A stretch of 64,000 nucleotides of DNA from Dyella subtropica (GTDB lineage: Bacteria > Pseudomonadota > Gammaproteobacteria > Xanthomonadales > Rhodanobacteraceae): positions 1 through 64,000 of the forward strand of contig NZ_JAPDPD010000020.1 in the NCBI RefSeq assembly GCF_026283965.1, read 5' to 3'. This document shows, piece after piece, positions 60,454-64,000 of this stretch. The translations under genes and the position numbers were made by a program. Each line of letters opens with the position of its first letter. Within the stretch, counting starts at the first letter, position 1. The notes under the pieces were generated by a model. It was not told where the DNA came from, made no database searches, and worked only from the letters and a program-made list of their open reading frames with translations.

Positions 60454-61884
60454 ATGCATACCTTCGATATCCCCGTCATCGAATCTGATGCCATCCGCGC
60501 CGACGCTGTCGTGTCGGCTCTCCAGTTTCTTGGTCACCGCCCTCAGCTTCGCGACGATTGCTTGACGGCCCGCGGTGCGGCGCAAGATTGGCGCGCGATC
60601 TATATCGGACACGTAACCGATATCGACACCTTCCATCGGCAGCTCAATCAGCTGGGTGAACGCGAACGACAGCTGCCGATCCTGCTTGCATCGGACTCGC
60701 CGCTGGTCGGTGTTTTGACGGCGATGGATTCCCGTCACGCCAGCCGGGTCGAACTGATCGAATTCCCGTTGCGCTATGAGCGCGTCGCCGAGGCCATGCG
60801 CAGCCTGCTCGCGCGCGCATCCGCCAGTCATCAAGGCCAGGGGCGTTTCGTTGGCAGCTCAAACACCATGAGTCGCGTGCACTCGCTGGTGCGACAGGTG
60901 GCGCCCTTCGATTCCAGCGTGCTGGTGTTGGGCGAATCCGGCACCGGCAAGGAAATGGCTGCGCGCATGATCCACGATTGCTCGACGCGAAGGGATCAAC
61001 CGTTCATCGCCATAAATTGCGGAGCGATTCCGGCGGAGCTGCTTGAGAGCGAGTTGTTCGGACACGAAAAGGGCGCATTTACCGGTGCGATCAGCTCCCG
61101 CAAAGGGCGGTTCGAGCTGGCTGAGGGGGGCACGCTGTTCCTCGACGAAATCGGCGACATGAGTCTGTCGATGCAGGTGAAGCTGCTGCGTGTGTTGCAA
61201 GAGCGCGTGTACGAACGCGTCGGCGGCAATCGCACACAGCGCTGCGATGTACGCATCATCGCGGCGACCCATCGCAATCTTGAGCAAGCCATCGCCAACG
61301 GCCAATTCCGCGAAGACCTTTTCTATCGTCTCAGCGTGTTTCCGTTGGAGATGCCCTCGCTGCGTCAACATCTCGACGATCTGCCCGAGCTGATCGGCGA
61401 ATTCAATCAGCGCCTGCTGCGTCGTGGACTTGGCGGTGTGCGCCTGAGTGTCGGTGCCATGAACGCGCTGCGCGGCTATCCGTGGCCGGGCAATGTGCGC
61501 GAGCTGTCGAATCTGATCGAGCGTCTGGCGATCCTGTATCCCCACGGCGAGATTCGCGTCGGCGATCTGCCGGAAAAATATCGCGGCGCGCTTCCGACCG
61601 ATGAGGTCTGCGGCGCAGCCCTCATCGCCCTGATGGAAGATCGCGCAAACACATCGTCGATGGCGCTGCCGGAGCTGGCGACCGAATCACTGGTCTTGCT
61701 GCCCGAAGGCGGTCTCGATCTTAAAGATCATCTGGCTGACATCGAGGTGGGCTTGATCCGTCAAGCGCTCGACGCCACCGGCGGTGTGGTGGCGCATGCG
61801 GCGAAGTTGTTGCGCATGCAACGCACGACGTTGGTGGAGAAGCTGCGCAAGTACGGCTTGCAGGCCAGCTTGCAGGTTTCGTGA
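60454..61884 (+). CDS. fleQ: Sigma-54-dependent flagellar master activator FleQ
   Basis: A 476-residue enhancer-binding protein. Residues 1-120 form a FleQ-type receiver-like domain without the phosphorylatable Asp pattern. The AAA+ domain has Walker A GESGTGKE (160-167), the sigma-54 contact loop GAFTGA (207-212) and Walker B DEIGD (231-235). The C-terminal Fis-type HTH reads [20 protein letters not shown] with [15 protein letters not shown]. It activates flagellar class II promoters. Of the c-di-GMP motifs of Pseudomonas FleQ, the LFRS segment is replaced by GQGRFVG and KExxxRN reads KEMAARM. Confidence 0.92.
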
Positions 61885-62275: not shown

Positions 62276-62340
62276 GCTCGCTGGCGCATCGCCGCGCGTT
62301 GCTCACCGCTGCACAGCGGCACAACGTCAAAAGCAAACCT

Positions 62341-62448
62341 GTAGGAGCGCACCCTGTGCGCGATTCGGCCCGACAGGGCCGCGCTCTTTCGACTCACTAC
62401 TACCGGGCACTGCTTTGCAGAGCCTTCGCGCACAGGGTGCGCTCCTAC
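62341..62448. repeat. REP-type palindrome pair with perfect 23-bp arms
   Basis: GTAGGAGCGCACCCTG begins the left arm at 62341-62363 and CAGGGTGCGCTCCTAC ends the right arm at 62426-62448; the arms are perfect reverse complements over 23 bp. It lies between composite repeat copy 4 and the fliE promoter and parallels the pair at 44201-44275. Confidence 0.85.
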
Positions 62449-62487
62449 CGATGCGTGATGCGCGTGCATTGCCACGTCGACAACACA

Positions 62488-62503
62488 TGGCACGCCTCGT
62501 GCA
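62488..62503 (+). promoter_or_regulatory. Sigma-54 promoter of the fliE operon
   Basis: TGGCACG-N4-GTGCA matches the -24 element perfectly and the -12 element with one change, with 10 bases between GG and GC. It lies 40 bp upstream of the first ATG of the tandem leader and 82 bp upstream of the fliE ATG. Confidence 0.75.
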
Positions 62504-62542
62504 TCTACCCACTTATTCGTGGTCACGCGTTGGAAATCCGTC

Positions 62543-62588
62543 ATGAGTCAGCCGTCATGAGTCAGCCGTTATGAGTCAGCCGTTATGA
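62543..62588 (+). promoter_or_regulatory. Tandem minicistron leader: 14-bp repeats with overlapping ATGA
   Basis: ATGAGTCAGCCGTC/T occurs in tandem with ATGs at 62543, 62557, 62571 and 62585. The first three open five-codon frames (MSQPS, MSQPL, MSQPL), and each TGA stop overlaps the next ATG as ATGA. The fourth ATG is fliE (MSQID). GGAAAT lies about eight bases before the first ATG only, so ribosomes may enter there and re-initiate stepwise into fliE. Confidence 0.7.
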
Positions 62589-62914
62589 GTCAGATCGATA
62601 TCAACAGCATGTTGTCTCAGATGCGACAGCTCTCCACGCAGGTGCGCATGCCGGAGACTTCGTTCGCTCGCGCGGCGAATGCGGCGCAGGGTGAAGACTT
62701 TGGCGCGCTGTTGCGTCAATCAATCATCGCGGTCGGACAGACTCAGATGGAAGCCGGTCGGCTCGCCGCGTCGTTCGAGCGCGGCGATGAAGGTGCTGAT
62801 CTGGGTCGCACGATGGTGGCGGTGCAGAAGGCCGGTCTCTCGCTGAGCGCGCTGACGGAAGTGCGTAACAGGATGGTGGATGCCTACAAGGACATCATGA
62901 ATATGCCCGTTTGA
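62585..62914 (+). CDS. fliE: Flagellar hook-basal body protein FliE
   Basis: A 109-residue protein that joins the MS ring to the rod. It shows the family patterns FGALLRQSIIAVGQTQMEAG and AVQKAGLSLSALTEVRNRMV with VDAYKDIMNMPV at the end. The ATG at 62585 is the last of four tandem ATG units. It is followed by fliF, as in most gammaproteobacteria. Confidence 0.96.
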   Translation: MSQIDINSMLSQMRQLSTQVRMPETSFARAANAAQGEDFGALLRQSIIAVGQTQMEAGRLAASFERGDEGADLGRTMVAVQKAGLSLSALTEVRNRMVDAYKDIMNMPV

Positions 62915-62923
62915 GTGAGGCGT

Positions 62924-63032
62924 AAGGAGTGATGAGTGAGAGCGCGAAAATCGAGGCGCTCCGCGTGCTGGATGTGCCCAGCAATCCCACGTCCTGATCT
63001 CTTACTCCTCACTCCTCATCACTCACTCCTGG
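62924..63032. repeat. Imperfect AGTGATGAG-type inverted repeat between fliE and fliF
   Basis: AAGGAGTGATGAGTGAGAG (from about 62925) and CTCTTACTCCTCACTCCTCA (from about 62999, continuing TCACTCACTCCT) are imperfect inverse copies rich in AG on one arm and TC on the other. They could form a stem-loop in the fliE-fliF spacer. Confidence 0.4.
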
Positions 63033-63083: not shown

Positions 63084-64000
63084 ATGGCCGAGAACGCCCT
63101 CGCGCAGTCCGACAACGGTACGCGCCTGGACCCCCTGAAGAATCTCGCGCAGAGCCCCGCCGCAAGGCAGCTGCTGTTGCTGATCGGCGTGGCGCTTGCG
63201 GTGGCGTTCGGTGTGGCTGTGGTGTTGTGGTCGCGCGGTCCGAACTTTGCGTTGTTGTATGCAGGGCTCGATCAGAAAGATGCCGCCGCGGTAACGCAGG
63301 CGTTGCAGGCATCCAATACGCCGTATCAGTTGGGCACGGATGGCTCGTCGATCTCGGTGCCAGCGGCGAGTCTCGCCGCCGTGAAGTTGAAACTCGCCGC
63401 GCAGGGCCTGCCGCAGGGCAGCGTCGGCAGCACCAGCGTGCCGGGTGCCGACTCGCCATTCGGTATGAGCGATCTGGCTGAGCGCACGCGTTACCAGCAG
63501 ATGCTGGAGACGGACCTGGGTAACACCATCGCCGGGCTGCAGTCGGTGCGCGCCGCGCGTGTGCATCTGGCGCTGCCCAAGCCCTCCGCCTTCATTCGCG
63601 ACAATCATCAGGCCAGCGCATCCGTGCTGGTCACGCTTTATTCGGGACGCCAGCTGGATGCCAGCCAGGTGGCGGCGATCGTGCATCTGGTGTCGTCCAG
63701 CGTGCCCGAACTCGATCCGAAGCAGGTGTCCGTGGTCGATCAACAAGGCCAGCTGCTCACCACCACCGATCCGGATAACGCCGCCGCGGTGGGCGACAGC
63801 CGGCTGCGTCTGGCTACGCGTATCGAGAACACCTACGCGCAGCGTATCGAGGCATTGCTGACGCCCTTGGTGGGGCCGGGCAAGGTGCGCGCGCAGGTCT
63901 ACGCGGATCTTGATTTCAGCCAGACCGAGAAGGCCACCGAGACCTACGATCACGAACACCCCGCGCTGCGCAGCGAGCAGACCAGCAGCCAGCAACACAA
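63084..64000 (+). CDS. fliF: Flagellar MS-ring protein FliF (N-terminal part)
   Basis: The membrane-embedded ring that is the foundation of the basal body. 305 complete codons are visible before the window ends. The N-terminal membrane helix (LLLLIGVALAVAFGVAVVLW) is followed by YAGLDQKDAAAVTQALQASN, the ring-building YscJ/FliF domain (FGMSDLAERTRYQQMLETDL, RAARVHLALPKPSAFIRDN) and the start of RBM3. The C-terminal FliG-binding tail lies outside. Confidence 0.95.
   Translation, partial: MAENALAQSDNGTRLDPLKNLAQSPAARQLLLLIGVALAVAFGVAVVLWSRGPNFALLYAGLDQKDAAAVTQALQASNTPYQLGTDGSSISVPAASLAAVKLKLAAQGLPQGSVGSTSVPGADSPFGMSDLAERTRYQQMLETDLGNTIAGLQSVRAARVHLALPKPSAFIRDNHQASASVLVTLYSGRQLDASQVAAIVHLVSSSVPELDPKQVSVVDQQGQLLTTTDPDNAAAVGDSRLRLATRIENTYAQRIEALLTPLVGPGKVRAQVYADLDFSQTEKATETYDHEHPALRSEQTSSQQH

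Follow-up and report, generated by a model that had tools for sequence, protein, structure and literature searches.

Tandem repeats that lie beside a start codon and vary in copy number are known as phase-variable or tunable leader repeats, and the first cistron of a synthetic bicistronic design (BCD) usually has an embedded ribosome site. Coupling by termination-reinitiation over an ATGA overlap joins two real genes (PMC6728339, PMC10666635). In E. coli reinitiation drops steeply with the distance from stop to start, an overlap or a very short gap being needed, though as little as the final 15 nt of the upstream gene may do (PMC10666635). Without a strong SD sequence, it ranged from none to full depending on the gene pair (PMC6728339). 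Leader genes near structural genes were proposed to boost expression via reinitiation; the survey presented one non-overlapping leader per gene, most often 10-11 bp away, and neither tandem chains nor ATGA overlaps (PMC4833913).

In Dyella subtropica the start of fliE is preceded by a ladder of three five-codon minicistrons, located in the window, i.e. the whole stretch of 64,000 nucleotides analysed. The ladder is like the known ATGA coupling in the 4-nt stop/start overlap at each step, its upstream frames are however three five-codon copies of the start of fliE itself. With the leader genes it has in common a very short frame that stops close to where the real gene begins, and with the BCD leaders (e.g., PMC5995908 and PMC10367133) a short first cistron that would feed reinitiation. 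Those leaders are engineered and single, whereas the window has three natural ones, the later ones almost without SD. As in phase-variable repeats, the array adjoins the start and its copy number can change; unlike at on/off loci, any whole number of 14-bp units keeps the frame of the fliE ATG and the ATGA chain open. The repeated regulatory codons of attenuators and leader peptides are absent, and the last leader runs into fliE with no untranslated stretch in between. A search of the open-access literature retrieved no description of repeat-built minicistron chains.

Architecture of the fliE start

The array consists of four exact-length copies of the 14-bp unit CCGT(C/T)ATGAGTCAG, spanning -5 to +9 relative to the fliE start (Table 1). 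The ATGs were read directly at 62543, 62557, 62571 and 62585, and stop and next start overlap by 4 nt (ATGA) at all three junctions. The preliminary description of this DNA, with four ATGs 14 bp apart, three five-codon frames, ATGA overlaps and fliE at the fourth ATG, agreed with this reading; the 14-bp tandem unit stood as well, the array limits were corrected to a true start at 62538, which includes the five bases 5' of each ATG. A ribosome site had been ascribed to ATG1 alone. This turned out to be a matter of degree: ATG1 has a GGA with -3.3 kcal/mol, ATG2-4 have only a GAG, derived from the preceding ATGAG, with -2.2 kcal/mol against the anti-SD. This 3-nt GAG is all that resembles an SD motif within the upstream frames; such a motif is common in coupled cistrons and not required. 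ATG4 is about 50 nt away from the conserved ribosome site, a distance too large for it to use that site directly.

Table 1. Coordinates of the features at the fliE start and of two further ladders in the same genome
Feature	Position	Strand	Description and evidence
FleQ-like sigma-54 activator gene	60454..61884	+	Pfam Sigma54_activat 4e-74, FleQ domain 7.5e-9, HTH_8; upstream of the fliE operon
sigma-54 (-24/-12) promoter TGGCACGCCTCGTGCA	62488..62503	+	sequence and same element in relatives
GGAAAT, ancestral weak ribosome site for ATG1	62532..62537	+	-3.3 kcal/mol to anti-SD
tandem array	62538..62593	+	period 14, 4.0 copies, 97% matches (Tandem Repeats Finder)
minicistron 1	62543..62560	+	MSQPS*; ATG AGT CAG CCG TCA TGA; sits on the ancestral fliE start codon
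minicistron 2	62557..62574	+	MSQPL*; ATG AGT CAG CCG TTA TGA
minicistron 3	62571..62588	+	MSQPL*; ATG AGT CAG CCG TTA TGA
fliE	62585..62914	+	109 aa; Pfam PF02049 4e-25
fliF	63084..63998, continues beyond the window	+	Pfam YscJ_FliF 3.8e-58
L219	G000:C19:57953-57984	-	HAD hydrolase; last rung MKSAR* near-copies the gene start MKSAL...; a coding-like frame upstream closes on the first ATGA
L231	G000:C2:152748-152779	-	methyltransferase

Three ATGAs at 14-bp spacing occurred twice in the window, both times in the array, and not once in 100 dinucleotide-preserving shuffles. The exact unit had no second occurrence in the 4.95-Mb genome. Copies 3 and 4 carry a C-to-T change absent from copies 1 and 2, hence the array grew in at least two rounds. 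The chain was built by tandem duplication of the -5 to +9 region. A sequencing or assembly artefact is unlikely, as the array measures just 56 bp and similar fliE arrays were present in independent assemblies. Another tandem repeat of the window, at 2271-2409, has a 45-bp unit (3.1 copies, 95% matches).

The first frame of the chain has an upstream sigma-54 promoter and a GGAA site at a conserved distance from ATG1. From the usual spacing to the -12 element, transcription is expected to start near 62514, which would give a 29-nt leader before ATG1. A REP-like long inverted repeat (GTAGGAGCGCACCCTGTGCGCGA ... TCGCGCACAGGGTGCGCTCCTAC, 62340-62450) lies between the fleQ-like gene and the promoter. 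The closest FliE found was that of Dyella sp. OK004 (83% identity). Since fliF starts 169 nt past the end of fliE, it is not coupled to fliE by overlap. The gap between both genes contains a 21-codon frame (MSESAKIEALRVLDVPSNPTS, 62932-62997) beginning AAGGAGTG-ATGAGTGAG; it is bracketed by roughly inverted 7-bp repeats, GAGTGAG... (62913-62940) and ACTCCTC... (63004-63030), and 7-bp arrays of this kind were also seen in other genomes of the family.

The ladder in relatives

fliE was sought in 233 genomes of the family Rhodanobacteraceae, one per species, and the comparison covered about 100 leaders. Nearly all single-ATG relatives, in Dyella and other Rhodanobacteraceae, have 54-57 nt between the promoter TGG and the fliE ATG, and the leader typically ends with GCGTTGGAANNCCGTC-ATG. 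The GGAA is kept in most relatives at matching distance from the first ATG. In the window the promoter TGG is 55 nt away from ATG1 and 97 nt from the present fliE start. Because the former distance matches that of the single-ATG relatives, ATG1 is evidently the ancestral fliE start with its old ribosome site and ATG2-4 are downstream duplicates; the fliE start codon has been shifted 42 nt downstream by repeated duplication.

The number of rungs differed between species. Most have none; one 14-bp step was present in D. tabacisoli (MSQLP*) and several Rhodanobacter (OK091 MRQST*, glycinis MRQVS*, T12-5 MGQPT*), two in Rhodanobacter UBA5168 (MRQAP* and MSQPT*) and three in the window. R. fulvus and Root480 have an 11-bp step, MRQP*. 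In nine Rhodanobacter an uncoupled upstream ATG lies at 16 nt, one has an upstream ATG in frame 21 nt from the fliE start, and several have lost ATG1. In most Rhodanobacter with an altered start, the old start now reads ATGAGG or AGGA (-4.3 to -6.0 kcal/mol) and so provides a fair ribosome site to the present fliE start. In a Rhodanobacter-like genus (g22, e.g., L152, L153, L174), the ancestral ATG is gone and fliE starts about 27 nt further downstream; an inverted repeat, CCCGTCGCGYGACGGG, adjoins the old ribosome site in these leaders.

The sister genome OK004 has a single ATG. In a tree of fliE and fliF, the nearest rows to the window were OK004 and D. tabacisoli with its one step, in a weakly supported order, and the Rhodanobacter ladders formed a separate group. 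The ladders of the window and D. tabacisoli may have arisen independently, or once with a later loss in OK004; both are possible. Strict conservation of the ladder, for which a comparison of repeat numbers had been proposed, was not observed: the steps indeed vary from 0 to 3 between species, and most relatives have a single ATG. The ladder was thus rejected as a conserved fliE feature and appears to be a recurring, unstable outcome.

The differences between species indicate that the copy number changes on evolutionary time scales. The preliminary description had gone further, to slippage that would add or remove rungs and could tune the FliE output. On this reading the rung number would change within a population and the array would work like a volume control on flagellation. 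Rung numbers of 0, 1, 2 and 3 across species and the at least two rounds of growth visible in the window are in line with such a tuner, yet a short array of four copies that already differ by one base should slip less readily, and most relatives have no array at all; we consider this reading improbable.

Possible routes to FliE

The best explanation, and a moderately probable one, is a duplication of the ancestral start combined with ribosomes being passed from ATG1 to ATG4 by serial termination-reinitiation. Since the unit of 14 bp is 3n+2 and fliE begins with ATGA, every new copy is a closed five-codon cistron overlapping the next start. Ribosomes would load at ATG1 and make MSQPS, then restart over ATG2 and ATG3 and reach ATG4, where FliE begins. 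Some ribosomes would drop off at each rung, thus FliE synthesis is probably slower than it was in the ancestor with its one ATG; fliF would initiate independently and so be unaffected by the ladder. The authors of a Salmonella FliE study speculated that fliE requires more expression than other basal-body genes (PMC8546590), which counts against a ladder that lowers FliE. Termination-reinitiation would be the likeliest route to FliE. Serial reinitiation over three rungs is possible; three steps might pass very few ribosomes, because SD-less reinitiation ranges from none to full by gene pair. The ladder would survive because duplicating 3n+2 bases where a gene opens with ATGA leaves the path to that gene open; the cell need not require the ladder. 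That 3n+2 keeps this path open and 3n+1 does not would be enough to account for its tolerance.

Neutral tandem duplication would leave ATG1-3 as vestiges and the overlaps as a by-product, the 30S initiating directly at ATG4 with the GAG in an accessible leader. The ATGA overlap follows from the unit length arithmetically, and the sister species does without a ladder. Rhodanobacter whose upstream ATG lies 16 nt away or in frame at 21 nt, or which no longer have ATG1, suggest that the overlap is dispensable; their spacings and lost ATG1, together with the GAGG and AGGA sites, make direct initiation at the real start appear clearly reachable. A maintained regulatory role is opposed by the single ATG in most relatives including the sister and by the fate of the extra unit in Rhodanobacter, which often became a ribosome site or lost its ATG. 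In the window, however, the conserved ribosome site still lies before ATG1 and no more than a 3-nt match before ATG4, so most loading is expected at ATG1. Together with the lengths of duplications at other genes (see below), this leaves neutral duplication with direct initiation a rather unlikely account. A chain of coupled minicistrons at fliE is a plausible reading, now with an evolutionary history.

14-bp ladders at other gene starts

The pattern ATGA-N10-ATGA-N10-ATGA had matches in 65 of the 233 family genomes. Other periods in the same search matched in 24 (11 bp), 15 (13 bp), 20 (16 bp) and 34 (17 bp) of them, and in a set of 101 genomes the 8-bp and 20-bp periods matched in 9 each and the 14-bp period in 26. 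Loci were assigned to gene starts if the last ATG opened a coding-like frame that is preceded by a stop in the same frame, and called repeat-like if the units were at least 60% alike. Thirty of 40 14-bp loci were at gene starts, 25 with repeat-like units, fliE ladders being excluded and the 40 having been picked from 60 because their frames were open and their units highly identical; some of the 25 are orthologous, and 22 remained after collapsing three. The other periods, taken nearly whole, gave 4 of 15 loci (1 repeat-like) for 13 bp, 4 of 21 (0) for 11 bp, 5 of 25 (2) for 17 bp and 1 of 19 (0) for 16 bp. The repeat-like contrast, at least 25 versus 0-2, is not much affected by the selection, nearly all high-identity loci having been taken at every period. 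The search demands ATGA, its conservation among the matches is thus no evidence. A reversed-pattern control was weak: 7-bp arrays probably raised its count at 14 bp, and AGTA is less common than ATGA.

Duplications of 3n+1 length (13 or 16 bp) hardly occurred at the gene starts of the family, with repeat-like units there in 1 of 34 loci. This speaks against neutral duplication and would follow if it matters that the rungs are translated. The 3n+2 arithmetic alone was rejected as the cause of the family excess, as 11-bp and 17-bp periods follow that rule too and had 0 and 2 repeat-like loci at gene starts versus 25 for 14 bp.

All 20 of the 14-bp ladder genes tested had hits in Pfam, including RuvC, a KdpE-like response regulator, a CoaBC-type flavoprotein, an M20 peptidase, a carboxyltransferase, a radical SAM protein and AhpC/TSA. 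In about one third of the ladders a coding-like upstream frame stops on the first ATGA, in the order gene, rung, rung, gene. The genome of the window has two more ladders at gene starts (L219 and L231, Table 1). In other Pseudomonadota 14-bp ladders were found at genes for a GuaA-like amidotransferase, a NiFe hydrogenase large subunit, a TsaD-family protein, Maf and phosphatidylserine decarboxylase. Viral contigs did not support a preference for 14 bp that holds everywhere: among the matches listed, arrays of four ATGAs stood ahead of a long frame in 6 of 76 (14 bp), 0 of 79 (11 bp), 11 of 68 (17 bp) and 5 of 79 cases (13 bp), the viral arrays being mostly non-genic repeats. One phage contig (L467) has four identical 14-bp MKTFQ* rungs leading into a 229-codon frame (MKPVLYGIVDGN...).

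The units at different genes are unrelated in sequence and have in common only the ATGA and the length of 14 bp. Unit-gene identity drops on both sides of the ATG, explainable by mixed phases and divergence, thus no fixed phase is claimed. The SD energies of the rungs had means of -1.1 to -1.8 kcal/mol versus -1.7 kcal/mol for random upstream 13-mers. That each unit copies a good ribosome site was therefore rejected in general, the rungs being like random sequence; it holds for some Rhodanobacter fliE units only, the ATGAGG units reaching -5.6 to -6.0 kcal/mol.

FleQ binds in the leaders of some Pseudomonas flagellar genes. At fliE the unit lies just 3' of the sigma-54 promoter and adjoins a fleQ-like gene, so the repeat might multiply a binding site, e.g., for FleQ, or form an RNA structure, with the ATGs incidental. 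This DNA or RNA signal is very improbable: the unrelated units elsewhere disagree with it, as does the repetition of fliE's own first codons, and a literature search on FleQ sites in the fliE leader yielded nothing relevant.

We tentatively propose, at low confidence, that the 14-bp ladders are a recurring, undescribed class of SD-less translation leaders in Rhodanobacteraceae and other Pseudomonadota, in which tandem copying of a gene's start region at a privileged length of 14 bp would yield chains of five-codon cistrons that hand ribosomes on to the gene, and the number of rungs would set the output. This class is more interesting than the fliE case. Annotation misses such ladders because each frame has just five codons. 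Most surprising is that 14 bp is preferred to the other 3n+2 lengths (8, 11, 17 and 20 bp), for which the tolerance arithmetic gives no reason. If the rungs are translated, the ladders would be natural serial reinitiation devices, one ribosome restarting several times within about 50 nt, and would allow one to test directly if ribosomes can restart after termination in the absence of an SD site, and with what efficiency. They would also show how duplication can relocate a start codon with the operon coupling staying intact.
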